DNA of 34,901 nt from an uncultured Nocardioides sp. (GTDB taxonomy: Bacteria > Actinomycetota > Actinomycetes > Propionibacteriales > Nocardioidaceae). The stretch lies in the NCBI RefSeq assembly GCF_902805925.1, contig NZ_CADCUP010000111.1:1-34901 (forward strand), given 5' to 3'. Position 1 is the stretch's first letter. Each line of letters begins with the position of its first letter. The notes below the pieces were generated by a model that saw only the letters and a program-made list of their open reading frames with translations, was not told the DNA's origin and made no database searches. Shown here piece by piece: positions 2,156-34,901 of this stretch. Position numbers and translations under genes: made by a program.

Positions 2156-3271
2156 GTGAAGGTCGGCGTCCCGAAGGAAGTCAAGAACCACGAGTACCGC
2201 GTCGCGATGACGCCCGTCGGAGCACACGAGCTGACCCACCGTGGTCACCAGGTCGTCGTCCAGAGGGGTGCCGGCCTCGGGTCGCAGATCGCCGACGAGG
2301 AGTACGCCGCCGCAGGCGCCACCATCATCGACTCCGCCGACGACGTCTGGGGCAGCGTCGACATGGTGCTCAAGGTCAAGGAGCCCGTGGCGGAGGAGTA
2401 CCACCGGCTGCGTGAGGGCCTCACGCTCTTCACCTACCTCCACCTTGCCGCCGACAAGCCCCTGACCGAGGAGCTGCTGAGCACGAAGGTCACCGGCATC
2501 GCCTACGAGACCGTGCAGCTGCCCTCCGGCGGGCTGCCGCTGCTCTACCCGATGTCGGAGGTCGCAGGCTGCCTCGCGCCGCAGGTCGGTGCCCACTCCC
2601 TGCTGCGCGCCCAGGGCGGCCGCGGCGTGCTGATGGGCGGCGTCGGTGGCGTCGCCAACGCCAAGGTCGTCATCATCGGGGCCGGCGTCTCCGGCCAGAA
2701 CGCCGCCAACATCGCCCTCGGCATGGGCGCCGACGTGACACTGCTCGACACCGACCTCGACAAGCTGCGCATGTCGTTCTGGCGCTACAACAACCGCGTC
2801 CACGGCCTCGCCTCCTCCACCCTGGCGATCCGCCAGCAGGTGATGGAGGCCGACCTGGTCATCGGTGCGGTGCTCATCCCGGGCGCCCGGGCACCGAAGC
2901 TGGTCAGCAACGAGCTGGTCTCGCAGATGAAGCCCGGCTCGGTGCTCGTCGACATCGCCGTCGACCAGGGCGGCTGCTTCGAGGACACCCGGCCCACCAC
3001 GCACGCCGACCCGACCTACGAGGTCCACGGCTCGATCTTCTACTGCGTGGCGAACATGCCCGGCGCGGTGCCCAACACCTCGACGTACGCCCTGACCAAC
3101 GCGACGCTGCCCTACGCCGTGGCGCTGGCCGACAAGGGCTGGCAGCAGGCGTGCCGGGACGACCGGAGCCTGGCGCTGGGCCTCAACACCCATGCCGGCA
3201 CGCTCACCAACGCCCCCGTCGGGGAGGCGGTCGGCATCTCCGCCACCTCCCTCGACGAGGCGCTGGCCTGA
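2156..3271 (+). CDS. ald: Alanine dehydrogenase
   Basis: NAD-dependent oxidative deamination of L-alanine to pyruvate and ammonia (reversible), a soluble cytoplasmic enzyme. The 371 residues match the usual family length. The N-terminus [20 protein letters not shown] is the AlaDh/PNT signature. The catalytic lysine context is [10 protein letters not shown] near residue 74. The Rossmann motif [14 protein letters not shown] is near 173-186, and the [10 protein letters not shown] segment near 268 carries the conserved Asp. The GTG at 2156 is chosen because it opens this signature and follows a GAGGAAGAGGAAG ribosome site. The related PntA near 27.2 kb shares the fold but has a membrane extension; this gene has none. 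Transcription is divergent from pepN. xerD begins 5 bases after the stop, so read-through is possible. Confidence 0.97.
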
Positions 3272-25758: not shown

Positions 25759-26234
25759 GCCGTCTCCCTCCCGGGGATTGAGAAGACTGCTCGCCGCCGT
25801 CCTCTCGTTCGTCAGGGTCAGACGCGACACCACTTCTGCGGTCTATTCCTATGCGGGGGGCGAAGCGACGCCCGGATCGATGATGGGGTGCTGAGCCCAC
25901 GATCAGATCGACCCAGGCGACGCACGTTTCACCGTGAGGTGCAAGGCGGAGATCCCAGCCGTGTATCACGCCGCTGGTCGGGCGAGCTGTGAGAGAGAGG
26001 TGCTGCGGCGCGAGGGCCTCATGCTTTCCCCACAGGCTCGCTCTCGTGATCCCCGTAGTAGCCCGAGACTGACAGTGTGAGCGCGTTCTCCCGTGGTAGG
26101 AGAAGGAGGCAGTCGCACGCTTGAGAATCTCGTTCTCCACCGCGAGCCGACGCTCGTCGCGCCGCGATTGGACCGGCTCGCCGCGCCCGGCAGTGGACGT
26201 ACGCTCATTCCGCCTCGTGGCTCGAGTGGCTGCC
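25759..26234. other. Gene-free stretch after the GntR gene
   Basis: No frame has a ribosome site, a family match or a consistent codon pattern. GC is lower than in the conserved half of the window. I see no terminator of note and no repeats. Confidence 0.45.
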
Positions 26235-26378
26235 TCAGTTGGTGGAGCGGTCAGTGGCGGGTGCGAGGTCCGCGTCGTTCAGCAGATCATTGAGCTCACG
26301 GTCGAGGTCGTCTTGGCTGGCGATGCTCTCGAACGTCGGGCGGGCTGCCAGGGCACCGAATCGACGAGTGAAGATCAT
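26235..26378 (-). CDS. 47-residue protein of unknown function
   Basis: A short gene supported by a near-ideal ribosome site: AAGGAG (26386-26391) stands 7 bases before the ATG. The product begins MIFTRRFGALAARPTFESIA and continues with an acidic helix-like stretch DDLDRELNDLLNDADLA. It has no transmembrane segment and no cysteines. The ACTGTATGC box lies 56 bases upstream of the start on the same strand, linking it to the GntR-type regulator. I do not recognise the family. It could be a regulatory small protein, a leader-type peptide or a precursor peptide; nothing in the neighbourhood (no modifying enzyme, no transporter) favours the last. Confidence 0.55.
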   Translation of the reverse strand: MIFTRRFGALAARPTFESIASQDDLDRELNDLLNDADLAPATDRSTN

Positions 26379-26433
26379 GGTCCTTCTCCTTGCTCTCGGG
26401 GGCCGAACCAATGGGGTTCCGCCCGGCCTGTGT

Positions 26434-26445
26434 ACTGCATACAGT
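26434..26445 (-). promoter_or_regulatory. ACTGTATGC box upstream of the 47-residue gene
   Basis: Minus-strand ACTGTATGCAGT, an imperfect palindrome with ACTG/CAGT arms, 56 bases before the small gene's ATG. It contains a TATGCA hexamer that could act as -10. Confidence 0.45.
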
Positions 26446-27150
26446 CTCCCGACTGCGTCGCGCGCGATCCGAATCGCCGAGCACGTGAGTCTGACCACAA
26501 GGCCGACTTGTCCGTTGCCGCGCGCACAGAAGTCGGTCTGACCGGAAGATCTCAAGCAGCCGAGACACGGCTCGTCCCGCGGGCTGCATGTGGGGCGCCG
26601 GCCAGGGACGCGAAGGCGCCCAGACCCACGGCTCGGGGTGTCTCCCTGGTAGGCAAGCCAGGTCCAGCAGGTCGGCCTCGACGGTTGCGTCCTCCTGATG
26701 GTGCCGGCCCTGGCATCTGGGTGTCTCACTTCGCGACCGGGACAGAGGGATGGAGCTCAGCCGTGGTGTCTCATCTCCGCCTGACGGCACAGGGTCCCCG
26801 AGGGCGAGTGCACGCCTTGGTGGTCCAGCGACTCGAGGTCCAGCTCGACCCCGATGAGCCGAGCCCGAAGGGCAGGCCGTGGGACGCGTTGACCAGGCGG
26901 TCAAGGAGCCCCTCGATCAGGGAGTGCGACTCTCGAAAACCCATGAAGGCGACCACTTCGGGTGTGAGGACGCGCTCTCCCGGGCTCGGCGTGGTGGGCC
27001 CGCGAGTACAGGAGCTCAGGCGTGCCACGTCCATGCCGGCGTGGACGAGCTCGGTGGTGGCTGCGACGTCACGCGAGGCATGGCCTAGGGTGCAGACGAC
27101 CTTCGCGCGCCCGGTTCACGTGCTGAAGGGCTCCGCTCCGGGTCGGACTT
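26446..27150. other. Gene-poor stretch between the 47-residue gene and pntA
   Basis: Several mutually overlapping frames on both strands, none with a start site or recognisable family. The sequence may hold decayed genes, but I cannot align any part to a family by eye. Confidence 0.4.
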
Positions 27151-27173
27151 GACGAACTGCATATCGCTGACGA

Positions 27174-27188
27174 CATACTGTATGCGAT
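27174..27188 (+). promoter_or_regulatory. ACTGTATGC box and likely operator upstream of pntA
   Basis: CATACTGTATG (27174-27184) is a perfect inverted repeat around a central T, and it contains ACTGTATGC (27177-27185). A related ACTGCATA copy in the other orientation is at 27156-27163. The box is 37 bases before the pntA GTG, and the TATGCG inside it could serve as -10. Confidence 0.5.
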
Positions 27189-27221
27189 CTCACATCGTGT
27201 GCAGTCCTGATCGGAGATGCC

Positions 27222-28763
27222 GTGATCATCGGAATCCTCAAAGAAGCGCGCACGGGCGAGCGCCGCGTGTCTGCGACCCCGCAGACCGTGACCCGGCTCA
27301 TCGACCTCGGCTACGAGGTCGTCGTGGACCCCGGGGCGGGCGTGGAGGCGAGCTTTCTCGACGCTGCGTACACCGCGTCCGGCGCATCGATCGACAACGC
27401 GCTGGCGGCAGACATCGTTCTCGGCGTCAACCCTCCCTCGCGGCCCCAGCTCGAACGGCTCCGCCCCGGCGCCACGCTGATCGGCATGCTCAACCCGGGG
27501 ATTGACGCCGACCTGGTCAAGGATCTCGCCAAGCGCCCGATCACTGCGCTGGCGATGGACGCCGTGCCGCGGATCTCGCGGGCTCAGTCGATGGATGTGC
27601 TGAGCTCGATGGGCAGCGTCGCCGGCTACCGAGCGGTGCTCGAGGCCGGTCACCAGTTCGGCCGGTTCTTCACCGGGCAGGTGACCGCGGCAGGCAAGGT
27701 GCCGCCGACGAAGGTGCTCGTCGTGGGTGCGGGCGTTGCCGGCCTGGCCGCCATCGGGACCGCGCGCAGCCTGGGCGCGATCGTCCGGGCGACCGATCCG
27801 CGTCCCGAGGTGGCGGATCAGGTGGAGTCGCTGGGCGGCCAGTACATCGCCATCGAGTCGCCGGAGGTGGAGATCAGCTCCACCGGGTACGCCAAGGAGA
27901 TGGGCGACGACTACAAGGAGCGCGAAGCCCGTCTCTACGCGTCGCAGTGCGAGGAGGTCGACATCATCATCACCACCGCCTTGATCCCTGGCAGGGCGGC
28001 GCCGCGGCTGATCGACGCCGCGATGGTGGCGAGCATGAGGTCGGGGAGCGTGGTCGTCGACATGGCCGCGGCCAACGGCGGGAACGTCGAAGGCACGGTG
28101 CCGGGTGAGGTGGTCCGCACTGACAACGGCGTGATCCTGATCGGCTACACCGACCTCGCGGGCCGGATGCCTGCGCAGGCGTCACAGCTGTACGGCACGA
28201 ACGTCGTCAACCTGCTCAAGCTGATGACCCCAGACGGGGACGGCCAGCTGGTGCTCGACCAGACCGACGTCGTGCAGCGTTCGATCACGGTCGTCCACGA
28301 CGGTGAGCTGACCTGGCCACCGCCCCCGGTGCACGTGTCGGCAACGCCCGCGGCACCGGCGTCGGGGAAAGCTGCGGATGCCCCCGTGGAGGCGTCGGAG
28401 GAACGGCGGCCGATGTCGCCCGCACGGCGTGCTGCTCTGCTCGGTGTGATCGGTGCGGCGTTCTTCGTCGTCGCGGCACTCTCCCCACCGGCGCTGCTGG
28501 GCCACCTCACGGTGTTCGCCCTGGCGATCGTCGTGGGCTTCTATGTCATCGGGAAGGTTCACCACGCGTTGCACACGCCGCTGATGAGCGTCACCAACGC
28601 GATCTCCGGGATCATCGTGGTCGGCGCTCTGCTCCAGATCGGCCACCGCGGGGACACCGCGATCACCGCTGTCGCGGCCGTTGCGATCCTGCTCGCCAGC
28701 ATCAACGTCTTCGGCGGGTTCGCGGTCACCCAGCGCATGCTCGGCATGTTCCAGAGGAGTTGA
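27222..28763 (+). CDS. pntA: NAD(P) transhydrogenase subunit alpha (domain I plus membrane helices)
   Basis: Alpha subunit of the proton-translocating transhydrogenase, which uses the proton gradient to reduce NADP+ with NADH. The 513 residues match the E. coli-type alpha chain in one piece. Domain I opens [20 protein letters not shown] and contains the NAD(H)-binding Rossmann motif [15 protein letters not shown] near 168-183, then [18 protein letters not shown] and the mobile-loop-like region near 220-240. A linker rich in Ala/Pro (about 370-395) leads to four membrane helices (about 405-510). The GTG start at 27222 follows GGAGAT. pntB begins 3 bases after the stop. It lies downstream of the ACTGTATGC box shared with the GntR-type gene. 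Confidence 0.95.
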
Positions 28764-28766
28764 GAC

Positions 28767-30188
28767 ATGACTGTCGACACGGCGGCTCAGGCGGCCTACA
28801 TCCTCGCGGCACTGTTCTTCATCCTTGCCCTCGCCGGGCTGTCGCGTCACGAGACCGCCAAGGCCGGCAACGGCTACGGCATGGTCGGCATGGCGATCGC
28901 CATCGTTGCGACGATCGTGGTGACCATCGACGGTCAGATCCAGGGGACCGCGCTGGTCCTGCTCGTCACGGCCATGGTGGTCGGAGCGGCGATCGGGATC
29001 TATCGGGCCCGGGTCGTGGAGATGACCGGCATGCCAGAGCTGATCGCGCTGCTGCACAGCTTCGTGGGTCTGGCGGCGGTGCTGGTCGGCTGGAACGGCT
29101 TCCTCGAGGTCGAGGGTGACGCGGCCGGGGGCGAAGCACGGCGTCTCGACGCGCTCGGCACCCTCGGTATCCACCATGCCGAGGTCTTCATCGGTGTCTT
29201 CATCGGTGCGGTGACGTTCACCGGCTCCATCGTCGCGTTCTTGAAGCTGTCGGGCCGGATCAATTCCGCACCACTGATGCTGCCGGCCAAGAATCTGCTC
29301 AACCTCGGGGCGCTGGGCGCCTTCGCCATTCTCACAGCGTGGTTCGTGATCGATCCCCAGCTGTGGTTGCTCGTGGTGGTCACGATCCTGGCACTGCTGC
29401 TCGGCTGGCACCTGGTGGCCTCCATCGGCGGTGGGGACATGCCGGTGGTCGTGTCGATGCTCAACAGCTACTCCGGCTGGGCCGCGGCGGCCTCGGGCTT
29501 CCTGCTCGAGAACGACCTGCTCATCATCACCGGAGCACTGGTCGGCTCCTCCGGTGCCTATCTGTCCTACATCATGTGCAAGGCGATGAACCGCTCGTTC
29601 ATCTCGGTGATCGCCGGTGGCTTCGGCATCGAGGCATCCGCCGGCGGGGACGAGGACTACGGCGAGCACCGCGAGATCAACGCCGAGCAGGTTGCCGAAC
29701 TGCTTCTCGATGCCGAGTCGGTCATCATCGCGCCTGGATACGGCATGGCCGTCGCGCAGGCCCAGCACGGCGTCGCGCAGCTGACCCGCAAGCTGCGCGA
29801 CCGTGGCGTGGACGTGCGTTTCGGCATCCACCCGGTGGCCGGACGACTGCCCGGCCACATGAACGTGCTCCTCGCCGAGGCCAACGTGCCCTACGACATC
29901 GTCATGGAGCTGGATGAGATCAACGACGACTTCAAGGACACCTCGGTCGTCCTCGTCATCGGTGCCAACGACACCGTCAACCCCGCGGCGGCCGAGGACC
30001 CGAGCAGCCCGATCGCCGGGATGCCCGTCCTCACGGTGTGGCACGCGAACGACGTGATCGTGTTCAAGCGATCCATGGCGTCGGGCTACGCCGGTGTCCA
30101 GAACCCGCTCTTCTACCACGACAACGCCGCGATGCTCTTCGGCGACGCCAAGGAACGGGTCGACGACATCCTGGCGGCCCTCGAGTGA
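28767..30188 (+). CDS. pntB: NAD(P) transhydrogenase subunit beta (membrane domain plus NADP domain III)
   Basis: Beta subunit, 473 residues. About eight or nine hydrophobic helices cover residues 1-270, with the conserved [20 protein letters not shown] near 87-106 and [22 protein letters not shown] near 221-243. Domain III, which binds NADP(H), fills about 300-473 and contains [15 protein letters not shown] near 322-336, [22 protein letters not shown] split across 355-378, [10 protein letters not shown] near 400 and [18 protein letters not shown]. The ATG has AGAGGAG upstream. The gene is followed by hyi after 26 bases and is very likely in the same transcript as pntA. Confidence 0.96.
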
Positions 30189-30214
30189 GACAGCCGACAA
30201 CAGAAGGCTCGACG

Positions 30215-31054
30215 ATGAGCCACTCGCTTCGCTACGAGGTCAACTGTTCCATCCTCTTCACCGAGGTCCCTCTGCTCGAGAGGCCGGCCGCCGCTGCGGA
30301 TGCCGGATTCACGGCGGTCGAGTTCTGGTGGCCCTTCGACGAGTCGGTGCCGGGTGATCGCGACGTCGACGCGTTCGTGTCCGCGGTTCGCGATGCGGGT
30401 GTTGCGCTGGTCGGTCTGAACTTCGCCGCGGGCGACATGCCGGGTGGTGACCGGGGGCTCGTGTCCTGGCCCGCCCGAAGCGTCGAGTTCCGCGAGAGCG
30501 TCGAGGTGCTCGTGGGCATCGGCGAGCAGCTGGGGTGCTCCGCCTTCAACGCGCTCTACGGCAACCGGGTCCCGGACCTGTTCCCCGTGGAGCAGGACGA
30601 GATGGCCCTGACGAACCTCGCGTTCGCCGCGAATGCCGCGAGTGCGATCGGCGGCACGGTCCTCATCGAGCCGATCAGCGGGGCGTCCGGGTATCCGTTG
30701 CGCACGGCTGCCGACGCGATCGCCGTCATCGAGCAGGTCGAGGCCGATGCCGGGGTCACCAACATCGCCCTCCTGGCCGACCTCTATCACCTGGCCGTCA
30801 ACGGTGACGACGTCGACAGGGTCATCGCCGACCACGCCGACCGGATCGGCCACGTCCAGATCGCCGACGATCCAGGTCGGCACGAGCCGGGCACCGGCGA
30901 GCTTCCACTCGAGCGCCAGCTGGCCGCACTCGAGGCCGCCGGGTACGCCGGCTGGGTCGGTCTGGAGTACACACCCTCCACCACGACCGCGGACAGCTTC
31001 GCCTGGGTCCCGCGCGCGCGGCGTACCGCTGCTGTCGCCGATGCCCGTCACTGA
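30215..31054 (+). CDS. hyi: Hydroxypyruvate isomerase family TIM-barrel protein
   Basis: Likely interconverts hydroxypyruvate and tartronate semialdehyde, or acts as a related sugar-acid isomerase such as 2-oxo-tetronate isomerase. The 279 residues form an AP-endonuclease-2-like TIM barrel: YEVNCSILFTEVPLLERPAA near the start, GFTAVEFWWPFD near 31-42, the metal-site region TVLIEPISG near 150 and LLADLYHLAVNGDD near 187-200, HVQIADDPGRHEPGTGEL near 214-230, and VGLEYTPSTTT near 250. ATG at 30215 has AGAAGG upstream. Linked to pntAB, it suggests NADPH-dependent reduction of the product, as in glyoxylate or glycerate use, but no glyoxylate carboligase or semialdehyde reductase is in the window. 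The last 15 residues diverge from the usual ending. Confidence 0.85.
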   Translation: MSHSLRYEVNCSILFTEVPLLERPAAAADAGFTAVEFWWPFDESVPGDRDVDAFVSAVRDAGVALVGLNFAAGDMPGGDRGLVSWPARSVEFRESVEVLVGIGEQLGCSAFNALYGNRVPDLFPVEQDEMALTNLAFAANAASAIGGTVLIEPISGASGYPLRTAADAIAVIEQVEADAGVTNIALLADLYHLAVNGDDVDRVIADHADRIGHVQIADDPGRHEPGTGELPLERQLAALEAAGYAGWVGLEYTPSTTTADSFAWVPRARRTAAVADARH

Positions 31055-31058
31055 CCAC

Positions 31059-31087
31059 CCGGGTGCCCGTGGCCACGTGGCACCCGG
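31059..31087 (+). terminator. Hairpin after the pnt-hyi operon
   Basis: Nine-base arms CCGGGTGCC and GGCACCCGG around CGTGGCCACG (itself a small palindrome) and one T, 4 bases after the hyi stop. No T run. Confidence 0.65.
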
Positions 31088-31335
31088 AGGACCTCCAGGC
31101 GATCAACGTCGCCGACGTCGCCTGTCGGGGACCACCGGGGCACCACGGCGGGGCCATCGACGACGTGACGTCACGGCTGGAGATCTCGGTCTCGCCAACC
31201 CCAAGGAGCGCATCGAGGTACGGCGCCCACGCCCGCGGGACCCGGCAGCTGCCGACGCTTCCGCACCTGCGCCCTCGTCGCCTGTGGCCGGTCATGGCCG
31301 TGGTGGTCGCGATTCTCGGCGTAGGCTGATCCCAC
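31088..31335. other. Spacer between hyi hairpin and the cofactor operon
   Basis: About 250 bases without a credible gene. A plus-strand frame that starts at 31063 and ends with a hydrophobic stretch has no ribosome site or family. Two -10-like elements at its end (31322 and 31379) belong to the next operon. Confidence 0.4.
31322..31327 (+). promoter_or_regulatory. Possible upstream -10 element before the cofactor operon
   Basis: TAGGCT would start transcription near 31334, two bases before a GTG at 31336 that opens a 19-codon frame leading directly into mobA. Confidence 0.35.
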
Positions 31336-31395
31336 GTGGGAGGAGGGGCGGGTGGTGGCGGACGCCAGGGTCGTCGTATACCGTCTACATTGTGA
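31336..31395 (+). CDS. Possible 19-codon leader frame overlapping mobA
   Basis: GTG at 31336, then mostly Gly and Arg codons, ending with a TGA that overlaps the mobA GTG by 4 bases. The exact overlap and a -10-like element in the right place make it a candidate leader peptide; being so short and glycine-rich it could be chance, and the region's GGGAGGAGGGG would also look like a ribosome site. Confidence 0.2.
   Translation: MGGGAGGGGRQGRRIPSTL
31379..31384 (+). promoter_or_regulatory. -10 element of mobA, leaderless
   Basis: TACCGT, 7 bases, then GTG at 31392. No ribosome site is within 20 bases of that GTG. Confidence 0.45.
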
Positions 31396-32267
31396 CAACT
31401 ACCGCAGGGATCGTGCTCGCGGGCGGTCGCTCATCGCGGATGGGAACCGCCAAGGCAGCGTTGGAGTGGCATGGGTCCACGCTGCTCCGGCACGTCACGG
31501 GAGTGGTGCAGCGCGGCGTCGACGGACCGGTGTTCGTCGTGCGGGCGCCGGGGCAGGAGCTTCCCGAGCTCGACCGCGAGACCGTCGTCTGCGACGACCC
31601 TCGAGAGGGCATGGGACCCATGCAGGGCCTAGCGGTCGGGCTGCGCGCCGCCGCTGAGCACCCCGCGCGTCCGGACTTCGCTTTCGTGTGCTCCACCGAC
31701 CTGCCGTTCCTGCACAGCGCGTTCGTACGCGCCGTGCTCGCCGCCTTCACCTCCGGCCCCGACGCCGAGCCGGAGGTCGACGCCGTCCTGCCGATCGTCC
31801 GCGGCTTCCGGCAGCCGCTCGCCGCGGGCTACCGCACCGCGCTGGCCCCGTTGGTGGAGGAGCTGCTCGGCGAGGGTCAGCTGCGCCCCGCCCACCTGCT
31901 CGCGCAGTGCCGGGTGCGAGTCCTCGACGAGGAGGCCCTGCTCACCGACCGCGACCTCGCGGCCGTGGACCCCGAGCTCGAGTCGGTGGTGAACGTCAAC
32001 GAGCCCGACGACTACGAGGCCGCCCGCCGCCGTCCTGAGCCCGAGGTGGTCGTCGAGCGGTACGGCGTCCTCGCGACGCGCGGGGGAGAGCGCGGGGCAC
32101 GCGTGGTCAGGGCGGCCACCATCGGTCATGCCGCCGACCTCGTCGGGCTCGCGTTCGACGGCCACATCCTGGCCGCCGTCAACGGTGACCAGATCCGCAG
32201 CGACGGCACCCTTCCCCTGCAGGCGGGCGACACCGTCTCGTTCATCTCCGCGGACGCAGGAGGCTGA
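31392..32267 (+). CDS. MobA-MoaD fusion: molybdenum cofactor guanylyltransferase plus ubiquitin-like sulfur carrier
   Basis: A 291-residue protein with two parts. Residues 1 to about 205 are MobA: the NTP-binding signature AGIVLAGGRSSRMGTAKAAL at 5-24, and the metal-binding Asp in FVCSTDLPFLHS near 100. MobA attaches GMP to molybdopterin to make MGD. Residues about 217-291 form a MoaD/ThiS-like beta-grasp domain: VVVERYGVLATRGGER, then AFDGHILAAVNGDQIRSDGT and LQAGDTVSFISADAGG, ending in the C-terminal Gly-Gly that is thiocarboxylated when sulfur is passed to molybdopterin synthase. GTG at 31392 is preferred for the leaderless -10. The downstream oxidoreductase follows after 1 base. The fusion is unusual; the two ends are normally separate genes. 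Confidence 0.9.
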   Translation: MTTTAGIVLAGGRSSRMGTAKAALEWHGSTLLRHVTGVVQRGVDGPVFVVRAPGQELPELDRETVVCDDPREGMGPMQGLAVGLRAAAEHPARPDFAFVCSTDLPFLHSAFVRAVLAAFTSGPDAEPEVDAVLPIVRGFRQPLAAGYRTALAPLVEELLGEGQLRPAHLLAQCRVRVLDEEALLTDRDLAAVDPELESVVNVNEPDDYEAARRRPEPEVVVERYGVLATRGGERGARVVRAATIGHAADLVGLAFDGHILAAVNGDQIRSDGTLPLQAGDTVSFISADAGG

Positions 32268-32268
32268 C

Positions 32269-34053
32269 ATGCACGGCTACTTCGGACGCGCGCTCGTCGT
32301 CGACGTCACCGACGGCTCCGCGACGACGCTGCCCCTGAGTGAGGACGTGCTCCGGGCCACCCTGGGCGGCGTCGGCCTCGGCACCTGGCTGACCGCTGAG
32401 CTCGCCCCTCCCGGGGTCGACCCGCTGGCTGCGGAGAACCCGCTCTCGTTCGTGTTCTCCCCGCTGGTCGGGACGCCGCTGACCACCAGCGCCAAGTTCG
32501 CCGTCGTCGCGAAGTCGCCGCTGACCGGGCTGCTCACCGACGCACTCGCCTCCAGCCACTTCGCGATCGCCGGCAAGTTCACCGGGTACGACGCCATCGT
32601 CATCACCGGCCGCGCCGAGCGGCCCACCCACGTCTTCATCAGCGAGGACGGCGTCACCCTGGCCGACGCGTCCGCCGAGTGGGGGATGTCCGCCGCCGAC
32701 GCCGAGGCGACGGTGCGCGAGCGCAGCGGACCCCGCTGGCGGGTGGCCTCGATCGGCCCGGCCGGTGAGGCGCAGGTGCGCTACGCGACCATCTCCCACG
32801 ACGGACGGCACGCAGGCCGGGGCGGGCTCGGTGCCGTGCTCGGCAGCAAGCTCGTCAAGTCGGTCTCGGTGAGCGGCCGGACGCGGGTGACGCTGGCCGA
32901 CAAGGATGGCGTCCTGGCTCTGGCCAAGGACCTCCGCAAGCGCTCGTTCGGCCCGGCCACAGAGAAGTACCGCGAGCTCGGGACGCTCGCCAACCTGCTC
33001 GCCTTCAACGCGATCAGCACCCTGCCGACGCGCAACTTCCAGGCCGCCACGTTCGAGGGCGCGGCCATGCTGTCCACCGAGGAGCTGGCGAGCACCCGCT
33101 CCGTCGCGAAGAACAGCTGCGCCTCGTGCTCCATCGGCTGCGAGCACATCTATGCCGGCAAGGACGGCAAGAAGTCGCGGGTGGAGTACGAGAACGTCTT
33201 CGCCCTCGGCCCACTCTGCGGGGTCTCCGACGCCGACGACGTGCTGGCCGCCAGCTCTCGCTGCGACGAGCTCGGCCTCGACACCATCTCGGCCGGCGGC
33301 ACGATCGCCTGGGCGATGGAGTGCGTCGAGCGGGGGCTGCTCGACGCGTCGTGGCTGAGGTTCGGCGACGGCTCCGCGGTGCTGCGGGCTCTCGACGAGA
33401 TCGGCTCCCGCACCGGCATCGGCGCCCTCCTCGCGGAGGGGACGCGCCGTGCCTCCGCGCAGGTCGGCCAAGGGTCGGAGGACTTCGCCGCGCACGTGAA
33501 GGGCATGGAGATGCCGGGGTACGAGCCCCGCACGCTCCAGTCGATGGCGCTCGGTCTGGCCGTGAACGCGCGCGGTGCCGACCACAACCGCTCCGGCGCC
33601 TACGAGGCCGACCTGAGCGGTGACCGCGACCGGCTCGCGGGAGCCGCCGACCACGTGCGCGCCGCCATCACCACCGAGGACCGGGCCGCGGTCATCGACT
33701 CGATGATCCTGTGCAAGTTCCTCCGAGGCGTCTTCACCGACCCCTACGTCGAGTGGGCCGACCTGCTCTCGCGCGTCACCGGGTGGGACATCACCGGTGC
33801 CGAGCTGCAGGAGACCGCCCGGCGGATCGTCCTGGCGAAGCGGGCATTCAACCTCCGCGAGGGGTGGACGCCCGACGACGACTGGCTGCCCGAGCGGTTC
33901 CTCGACACCCCCCTAACGCTCCAGTCAGGACGCACGGCTACTCTGCCCGCCTCCCGACTGCGCGACATGATCGACACCTACTACCTAGAGCGCGGGCTTG
34001 ACGCTGAAGGGCGTCCACAGCTCGTCGCCACAGGATCGGAGACGACACCGTGA
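32269..34053 (+). CDS. Aldehyde:ferredoxin oxidoreductase family (tungsten-type) enzyme
   Basis: Likely oxidises aldehydes to acids, or the reverse, with a W- or Mo-bis-pterin and one 4Fe-4S cluster; 594 residues, close to the roughly 600 of archaeal AOR. The N-terminal domain starts with GYFGRALVVDVTDG and has the typical GGVGLGTWL near 33-41, SPLTGLLTDALASSHF near 83-98 and GYDAIVITGRAE near 106. The cluster ligands are Cys284, Cys287 and Cys291 (CASCSIGC) with the fourth Cys482 (MILCKFLRG), matching the spacing I recall for Pyrococcus AOR. The ATG follows GGAGG in the end of mobA. The gene overlaps the next by 4 bases. AOR members in aerobic Actinobacteria are uncommon, and the natural substrate is unknown. 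Confidence 0.93.
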   Translation: MHGYFGRALVVDVTDGSATTLPLSEDVLRATLGGVGLGTWLTAELAPPGVDPLAAENPLSFVFSPLVGTPLTTSAKFAVVAKSPLTGLLTDALASSHFAIAGKFTGYDAIVITGRAERPTHVFISEDGVTLADASAEWGMSAADAEATVRERSGPRWRVASIGPAGEAQVRYATISHDGRHAGRGGLGAVLGSKLVKSVSVSGRTRVTLADKDGVLALAKDLRKRSFGPATEKYRELGTLANLLAFNAISTLPTRNFQAATFEGAAMLSTEELASTRSVAKNSCASCSIGCEHIYAGKDGKKSRVEYENVFALGPLCGVSDADDVLAASSRCDELGLDTISAGGTIAWAMECVERGLLDASWLRFGDGSAVLRALDEIGSRTGIGALLAEGTRRASAQVGQGSEDFAAHVKGMEMPGYEPRTLQSMALGLAVNARGADHNRSGAYEADLSGDRDRLAGAADHVRAAITTEDRAAVIDSMILCKFLRGVFTDPYVEWADLLSRVTGWDITGAELQETARRIVLAKRAFNLREGWTPDDDWLPERFLDTPLTLQSGRTATLPASRLRDMIDTYYLERGLDAEGRPQLVATGSETTP

Positions 34054-34901
34054 CCATCACCCGCGACGGCATCGCCCCTCCCACGAGCGAGGAAGTGAAG
34101 ACCGTCTCGCTGACCATCGACGGCCAGTCCCTCAGCGTGGCCGAGGGCACCACCATCTGGGAGGCCGCGCGCGACGCGGGCATCGACATCCCGGTCCTGT
34201 GCCACGACGAGCGGTACGACCCGGTCGGCGTGTGCCGGATGTGCGTCGTCGACACCGGAGGACGAGTCCTCGCCGCCTCCTGCGTCCGGCCCTGCGACCC
34301 GGGGATGGAGGTCACGACGTCCACGCCCGAGATCGAGCGCAGCCGCGCCGTGCTCACCGAGCTGCTCGTCGTCGACCAGCCGCCGCGCGAGCAGGACCCC
34401 AAGCAGACCACCACCGCGGACAACGAGCTGATCTCGGTTGCCGACCGTTACTCGGTCGGCAGCGTGGACGACCTGTTCGCCGGGCCCACGCGAGGCACCG
34501 ACGCCTCGAACCCCGTGATCTCCGTCGATCACGACGCCTGCATCCTCTGCGACCGCTGCGTGCGCGCCTGCGACGACATCCAGGGCAACGACGTGATCGG
34601 CCGCAGCGGCAAGGGCTACTCGACCCGCATCTCGTTCGACCTGAACGACCCGATGGGCGAGTCGTCGTGCGTGACCTGCGGCGAGTGCGTCGCGGCCTGC
34701 CCGACCGGCGCGATCACCAACAAGGCGATCAACAACATCCCGATCCAGCCGAGGGAGAAGCTCGAGGCGGTCGACACGGTCTGCCCGTACTGCGGCGTCG
34801 GCTGCGCGCTGACCTACTACGTCGACCGCGAGCGCGGCGGGATCTCGTTCGCCGAGGGCCGCGACCAGTCCCTGGGCAGCCAGGGACGACTCTGCGTCAA
34901 G
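34050..34901 (+). CDS. Formate dehydrogenase alpha/NuoG-like iron-sulfur protein (3' end outside window)
   Basis: First 284 residues of a molybdopterin oxidoreductase of the FdhA/NuoG type. A plant-type 2Fe-2S domain has Cys51, Cys62, Cys65 and Cys78. Two ferredoxin-like 4Fe-4S motifs are CILCDRCVRAC (164, 167, 170, 174) and CVTCGECVAACP (207, 210, 213, 217). CPYCGVGC (245, 248, 252) with Cys282 opens the cofactor-binding domain, so the bis-MGD part should follow. The His-Cys3 site expected after the 2Fe-2S domain is absent: the equivalent stretch reads DQPPREQDPKQTTTADNELI. The GTG at 34050 overlaps the AOR stop by 4 bases. It may act as a formate dehydrogenase, or pass electrons to or from the aldehyde oxidoreductase. 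Confidence 0.9.
   Translation, partial: MTITRDGIAPPTSEEVKTVSLTIDGQSLSVAEGTTIWEAARDAGIDIPVLCHDERYDPVGVCRMCVVDTGGRVLAASCVRPCDPGMEVTTSTPEIERSRAVLTELLVVDQPPREQDPKQTTTADNELISVADRYSVGSVDDLFAGPTRGTDASNPVISVDHDACILCDRCVRACDDIQGNDVIGRSGKGYSTRISFDLNDPMGESSCVTCGECVAACPTGAITNKAINNIPIQPREKLEAVDTVCPYCGVGCALTYYVDRERGGISFAEGRDQSLGSQGRLCVK

Follow-up and report, generated by a model that had tools for sequence, protein, structure and literature searches.

Since 2006, when genes for aldehyde ferredoxin oxidoreductase (AOR) were noted to be often accompanied by a MoaD gene, this linkage has raised the question of why one enzyme should have its own sulfur carrier. Here we report the analysis of a locus from an uncultured Nocardioides species, where a MoaD-type domain is joined to the C-terminus of a MobA-like protein and the fusion gene lies directly before a gene of the AOR family, and we ask which cofactor step and which client enzyme each part of this protein may serve. 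The whole stretch of DNA that was analysed, referred to below as the window, is 34,901 nucleotides long. In the molybdenum cofactor (Moco) pathway, the MoaD thiocarboxylate and MoaE produce molybdopterin, MogA and MoeA insert the metal, and MobA then adds GMP. The GMP-bearing cofactor is used by enzymes of the DMSO reductase family such as formate dehydrogenase (FDH); the cofactor of AOR, as in the Pyrococcus furiosus enzyme, consists of two molybdopterins and no nucleotide.

Domain composition of the MobA-MoaD fusion protein

The fusion gene occupies positions 31392..32267 of the plus strand, from a GTG at 31392 to a TGA at 32265-32267, and encodes 291 amino acids; its delineation is based on the open reading frame, domain matches, relatives, and an AlphaFold model of the whole protein. 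The top fold matches of this model (mean pLDDT 91.3, pTM 0.91) are MobA structures, and Pfam NTP_transf_3 matches residues 6-165 (31407..31886, plus strand) with 97.9 bits (E 9.1e-28; cut-off 27), a position also recovered by a profile scan of the genome that contains the window (G000; 234 contigs, completeness given by the tool as 98%). The MobA signature that an earlier note on this DNA had placed in the N-terminal half, namely the LAGG..RMG region LAGGRSSRMGTAKA, is present at residues 9-22, with L9, G11, and G12 invariant in all 28 alignment rows of the fusion family. The MobA domain is indeed N-terminal, but the MobA part makes up nearly three quarters of the chain, not half of it.

The LAGG form is the GTP-type signature of MobA, and LAAG is that of MocA. 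Of seven NTP_transf_3 matches in the window genome, only the fusion, with its LAGG, qualifies as a MobA candidate; L036, which was also considered, has LAAG and scores far better on NboR and MocA models than on MobA, and the remaining proteins would, by our reading, be GlmU, RmlA, ManC, IspD, and GlgC. Of the NCBIfam models, those for MobA match the fusion best, and they also match 27/27 relatives at E <= 1e-5. Because the fusion scores below the equivalog cut-offs of these models (TIGR02665, 67 vs 151.85 bits; NF001855, 110 vs 205 bits), we name its N-terminal part MobA-like. It shares with MobA the domain, the LAGG..RMG signature, and the fold, and differs by these scores and by the extra MoaD domain. 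Its predicted role is the addition of GMP to molybdopterin.

The second domain comprises about the last 75-78 residues (residues 214-291; 32031..32264, plus strand). Pfam ThiS, found at residues 243-291, scores 17 bits in the whole protein and 20.3 bits in the C-terminal 78 residues alone, below the cut-off of 22.5 bits, for which reason we name this part MoaD-type; at E <= 0.001, a ThiS profile scan of the window genome did not include the fusion among its matches. The relatives give a clearer signal: with a limit of E <= 0.1, ThiS recognises 23 of 25 domain sequences, the best of them at 4.6e-6. An AlphaFold model of the domain alone (pLDDT 88.4, pTM 0.80) gave a tie between SAMP1 (2l52, Z 9.5) and E. 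coli MoaD (1nvi_D, Z 9.4; 71 residues, rmsd 2.4), and its top Foldseek match is a mycobacterial MoaD (6jbz_B, E 3.2e-4), so that the predicted fold is the ubiquitin-like beta-grasp of MoaD. The chain ends, like MoaD, in a free C-terminal Gly-Gly, within the tail SADAGG (32247..32264, plus strand; read from the translation). The domain search that the earlier note had called for and the fold prediction agree with its description of a beta-grasp region of about 75 residues ending in Gly-Gly, the lack of a predicted beta-grasp being one of the outcomes that it had listed as fatal; the search placed NTP_transf_3 well above its cut-off and ThiS below it.

Between the window and its nearest relative, Nocardioides sp. 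21Sc5-5 (L007; 91% identity), the MoaD part has a dN/dS of 0.075, as against 0.217 in the MobA part and 0.166 in AOR, and is under purifying selection. A chance Gly-Gly end is ruled out by these values, by the family alignment, and by the pattern of Gly-Gly ends and AOR genes described below.

Both partners expected of a MoaD, a MoaE and an E1 enzyme, are encoded in the window genome. Its single MoaE match (117.3 bits) lies on a different contig, in agreement with the earlier expectation of a MoaE partner encoded elsewhere, and its one E1 match above the cut-off (ThiF family, 270.1 bits) appears to carry a rhodanese-like extension, by which we read it as MoeZ. The same profile scans found one AOR and four ThiS-family proteins besides the fusion, which by our reading would be two of the CysO type (L001, L002), a ThiS (L003), and a MoaD-like protein (L004). 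The C-terminal domain of the fusion is predicted to be a sulfur carrier for molybdopterin synthesis that bears a putative thiocarboxylate.

Gene neighborhood, distribution, and probable origin of the fusion

The AOR family gene (32269..34053, plus strand; 594 aa) begins with an ATG one nucleotide past the stop codon of the fusion, so the earlier description of the fusion as directly upstream of an oxidoreductase, putatively of the tungsten type, is accurate as to position. Its product belongs to the AOR family by its AFOR_N and AFOR_C scores (207.8 and 355.6 bits) and by an alignment with the solved P. furiosus enzyme (1aor, E 9.4e-105) that takes in residues 1-582 of the 594-residue product. 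With the start position given in the ORF list, the following gene (34050..34901, plus strand) shares 4 nt with the end of the AOR gene, the stop codon among them. It encodes the alpha subunit of a formate dehydrogenase, with an N-terminus like that of NuoG, and the contig end leaves only its first 284 residues. Over these residues the fragment is 91% identical to the FDH alpha of L007, whose full-length protein scores 798.2 bits on TIGR01591 (cut-off 666.25). No other contig of G000 gave a match to the missing PF00384 part of the window FDH, the sole PF00384 match in this genome probably being, by our reading, NuoG of complex I.

In L007, the AOR gene is followed by full FDH alpha, a NuoE-NuoF fusion, and MoeA. 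The order fusion-AOR-FdhA-NuoEF-MoeA recurs in 16 of the 22 AOR-adjacent loci from the plasmid-collection and homologue searches; in five others (L013, L015, L022, L023, L024) the fetched stretch stops before the gene order could be complete, and L018 has AOR and no FDH within the following 6 kb. Spacers of about 1.5, 2.3, and 3.7 kb separate AOR from FDH in L022 (10600-12060), L024 (10657-12975), and L095 (572-4238), and are absent in the other loci.

Upstream of the fusion, the window carries the NAD(P) transhydrogenase genes pntA and pntB (27222-30188). Similar pntAB genes precede the fusion in L007 and L015 and gave no match in the other loci; it is conceivable that they supply reducing power to the AOR/FDH system. 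A hydroxypyruvate isomerase-like gene (30203-31054; TIGR03234 276 bits, cut-off 353) separates pntB from the fusion; none of the other loci, not even L007, gave a match to it. At 2156-3271, about 25 kb from pntAB, lies the gene of a second AlaDh/PNT protein, which resembles alanine dehydrogenase. No Rfam family reached its gathering score in 26000-34901.

A homologue search with the fusion returned 28 loci: 26 from actinobacteria, one from a Pirellulaceae MAG in which MobA stands alone (L033), and a partial match (L034). The 26 loci (L007-L032, all actinobacteria by name) extend beyond the MobA part, with the extra domain shortened in one. The earlier note had named a frameshift joining two separate genes as a further possible refutation; such a frameshift or assembly artefact is ruled out by the recurrence of the fusion across many genomes, and the dN/dS values of its two parts likewise speak against it. 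The plasmid collection yielded six records, one of them spanning at least 80% of the query. A MobA-MoaD copy on a Rhodococcus opacus plasmid (L006, 9917-10867) has an altered tail without Gly-Gly, and its surrounding stretch carries recombinase and transposase genes; the plasmid has no AOR match. A family member at E <= 1e-40 was found in 19/394 genomes of the class to which the window belongs (G000 included) and in none of the 19 same-genus genomes listed in that survey. Because so few class genomes, and none of the listed ones from the same genus, carry a family member, we infer a sporadic distribution of the operon and probable horizontal transfer.

Across these 394 genomes, AFOR_C scored above 330 bits in 12 and lower in five more. 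All 12 high-scoring genomes have a MoaD ending SADAGG (SAAAGG in G060) directly upstream of AOR, fused in eight and free in two (G021, G044); in the remaining two (G078, G117) a contig edge leaves fused and free forms indistinguishable. No MoaD-like ORF ending in Gly-Gly was recognised near the weak AOR-superfamily genes L086, L087, L088, L089, and L091, which cover four of the five lower-scoring genomes (G385 was left out). A neighbouring MoaD is thus usual for the AOR type of this class.

In the Pirellulaceae MAG (L033, genome G009), a free MoaD ending SADAGG directly precedes AOR, and MobA lies about 6 kb away. AFOR_C matches 68/294 genomes of the phylum of this MAG, and we hand-picked 12 of its AOR loci (317-366 bits) from matches beyond the loci listed by the phylum search. 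Two of the 12 have a fused MobA-MoaD adjoining AOR and FDH (L139, ending SAQSGG; L143, ending AAVGG); in two more, AOR is preceded by a free MoaD whose last residues are SADAGG or SADVGG (L135, L137); and one (L142) has separate mobA and moaD genes that overlap as ATGA upstream of AOR-FDH. In the other seven, three of which have AOR-FDH (L138, L140, L141), no adjacent MoaD was found. These seven loci, together with 29 of the 30 AOR loci listed by the phylum search, where the MoaD profile matched in only one, indicate that a MoaD neighbour is no general need of AOR.

The overlapping genes of L142 plausibly represent the state before fusion. A mobA overlapping an AOR-linked moaD would probably have lost its stop codon and thereby given rise to the fusion, and the gain may have been co-production of the two domains with the MoaD C-terminus left free. 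In L142, about 1 kb (581-1563) lies between the separate moaD and AOR, and a reading frame there seems, as we read it, to begin like a lipoprotein.

The Gly-Gly end and the adjacent AOR gene

To compare the tails, we pooled 48 family proteins, namely the window protein, 29 from the plasmid-collection and homologue searches, and 18 from the class survey, and called a protein AOR-adjacent when AOR lies within about 155 nt downstream. The partial MobA match L034 was left out, and L016/L051, with identical MobA parts, and the nearly identical L027/L056 were all counted. The genome survey proposed in the earlier note thus finds the fusion recurrent and AOR adjoining 30 of the 48 proteins. The Gly-Gly end is present in 30/30 AOR-adjacent proteins, compared with 2/18 of those without an adjacent AOR (L029 and L030, both DAGG). 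The other 16 have ends such as DRSG, GPGD, GPRG, AGVR, NVGV, and NVPR, shortened tails, or no MoaD domain at all (L033, L065, L066), and L063 stops at the edge of its stretch; the domain is kept without Gly-Gly in L027 and L056-L062.

Fisher's test for Gly-Gly against AOR adjacency gives p 7e-11, a value uncorrected for the relatedness of the proteins. A tree built from the MobA part shows seven changes of AOR adjacency and six of Gly-Gly, and four independent pairs lie on its well-supported branches; Gly-Gly agrees with adjacency in 3.9 of the four on average and is never opposite. The tree-corrected test has a median p of 0.125, which is not significant, and four pairs cannot reach 0.05. The Gly-Gly end, whose activity the earlier note had left conditional, is suggested by this pattern to be a working tail tied to AOR.

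Two simpler rules are ruled out. Gly-Gly is not always kept, as the 16 of 18 members without it demonstrate, nor is it lost only in genomes without AOR, since G021, G044, and G078 have AOR elsewhere. The fused copies of G021 and G044 end in NVGV, with AOR about 1.3 Mb away in the former and on another contig in the latter, and both genomes encode, immediately before AOR, a free MoaD that ends in SADAGG and is 68-69% identical to the fused MoaD domains. AOR gave no match in the genomes of L027 and L029-L032 (several of them MAGs); the same search was positive in three AOR-adjacent genomes and in G009. The DAGG proteins L029 and L030 are sister MAG proteins, and their tails may reflect either an incomplete genome or another client. 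In genomes that lack AOR or encode it elsewhere, the MobA domain persists and the Gly-Gly end is mostly lost.

Since the domain outlives its tail in L027 and L056-L062, it might be a docking or stability module without sulfur chemistry that ties MobA to MoaE, MoeZ, or AOR. We consider this quite unlikely, in view of the Gly-Gly in every AOR-adjacent member and the same ending in the free MoaDs beside AOR. The divergence of the MoaD domain relative to MobA also speaks against it, at 1.2-3.6 in six AOR-less pairs vs 0.5-2.0 (median about 1) in ten AOR-adjacent pairs, although the pairs were hand-picked and the ranges overlap.

Predicted roles of the two domains and related systems

We regard the protein as probably a two-domain cofactor-maturation protein whose domains act separately, MoaD for AOR and MobA for FDH. 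An E1 of the MoeZ type would charge the Gly-Gly end of MoaD with sulfur, and the charged domain would pair with the only MoaE of the genome and place the dithiolene sulfurs on molybdopterin, a supply that would chiefly benefit the AOR next door. The MobA domain would add GMP and yield the dinucleotide cofactor for the neighbouring FDH, a step that AOR would not need. The MobA part more plausibly serves FDH because the AOR cofactor is expected to be nucleotide-free, as in P. furiosus, and the FDH is of the guanylylated-cofactor type (TIGR01591, L007). The earlier proposal that the whole protein is a single dedicated AOR maturation factor finds no support in that form, given this FDH behind AOR and the persistence of the MobA part in family members from genomes without an AOR match. 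Against the reading of separate roles stand the DAGG ends of L029 and L030 without an AOR match, the tree test short of significance, the ThiS and MobA scores below their cut-offs, L018 without FDH, the seven of 12 AOR loci in the other phylum without an adjacent MoaD, and the T. kodakarensis knockouts described below.

Close to the suggestion of the earlier note is a true coupling: a single complex, formed with MoaE and MoeA and perhaps also with AOR or FDH, would carry out both sulfur insertion and guanylylation and channel a tungsten cofactor from molybdopterin synthesis to its enzyme. In favour of this reading, many genera have retained the fusion, its operon also encodes MoeA, AOR, and FDH, and the whole-protein model has a confident domain arrangement (by its pTM). 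It is nevertheless unlikely: metal insertion by MogA and MoeA falls between the two steps, separate, overlapping, or free forms also occur beside AOR (L033, L135, L137, L142, G021, G044), and the MobA part persists without the Gly-Gly tail.

A different client chemistry, in which the thiocarboxylate replaces FdhD and supplies the terminal sulfido ligand of the FDH metal, is brought up by the distribution of FdhD. No FdhD match was found in the genomes of the window, L009, L014, L016, L020, L021, and L028 despite their AOR-FDH operons, some of these genomes being from isolates; FdhD occurs in 14/20 AOR-bearing actinobacterial genomes (in one as a fragment only) vs 5/5 AOR-less genomes with a family protein. 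This is only a weak pattern, since most AOR-bearing genomes do have FdhD, and draft assemblies may miss it, as the rest of the window FDH was likewise not found in its assembly. The same MoaD type stands in L033 beside an AOR without a closely similar FDH, and we know of no precedent for a MoaD-type thiocarboxylate standing in for FdhD. We therefore hold such a replacement to be highly improbable.

Several elements of the favoured reading, that of two separately acting domains, have counterparts in the literature. MobA-dependent guanylylation has been proposed for a tungsten FDH (PMC13197769). The MoaD genes linked to AOR were described in 2006 and proposed to act in tungsten cofactor synthesis (Iyer, Burroughs and Aravind 2006, PMC1779556); as in the window, MoaD lies directly beside AOR and is distinct from the general moa operon, whereas the MoaD fusion reported there in this context, in Azoarcus, is to AOR itself and not to the C-terminus of MobA. 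MobA does not occur in that article, and loss of Gly-Gly away from AOR was not found in the passages covered. AOR-linked MoaD-like genes are also known from passages on Aromatoleum aromaticum (AorD/AorE, in or beside the AOR operon; PMC6365974) and Thermococcus kodakarensis (UblC/TK1065; PMC11323500), where they are free-standing, unlike the fusion.

Fusions that place two steps of the pathway on one chain likewise have precedents. MobA-MobB and MoaC-MobA appear in NCBIfam model names, and MoaD-MoaE and MoaD-MoeB fusions are described in passages of PMC11237513; in MoaD-MoaE the MoaD end is internal and thought to need cutting, whereas in the order MobA-MoaD the free end of the chain is that of MoaD. 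None of the NCBIfam models matching the family names a MobA-MoaD fusion, nor does any open-licence PMC article found, as judged by titles, abstract starts, and passages, with subscription papers mostly outside this scope. MoaD and MobA have no occurrence in the available text of PMC13328260 and one each, as query genes, in that of PMC6147048. Fusion to MobA, loss of Gly-Gly away from AOR, and co-occurrence of a Gly-Gly-less fusion with a free MoaD next to AOR thus appear to be new with respect to the portions of the open-licence PMC literature covered.

It is possible, though we think it doubtful, that this MoaD gives its sulfur to a single client, with selection on its Gly-Gly tracking the neighbouring tungsten-type enzyme despite another MoaD-like protein in the cell. 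According to passages of PMC11323500, the Gly-Gly end of the related UblB is required in T. kodakarensis for growth dependent on a tungsten enzyme. In one medium, AOR activity fell to about 54% in the strain without the AOR-adjacent MoaD-like protein, with elemental sulfur it was unchanged, and loss of two non-adjacent MoaD-like proteins cut AOR activity as much or more; as far as these passages go, the knockouts suggest overlap among carriers and argue against strict dedication.

The family points to tungsten-type AOR/FDH operons in actinobacteria with an architecture that the matching NCBIfam models do not name. It offers natural test pairs, with Gly-Gly-tailed proteins beside AOR and Gly-Gly-less ones elsewhere, and a free MoaD where the fused tail has been lost, so that client-dedicated sulfur carriers become testable via the last residues of a single protein. 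If such dedication were true, sulfur or cofactor would possibly be delivered at AOR itself, or FdhD replaced where it is absent, and sulfur carriers would be client-specific maturases, not merely feeders of a common molybdopterin pool.
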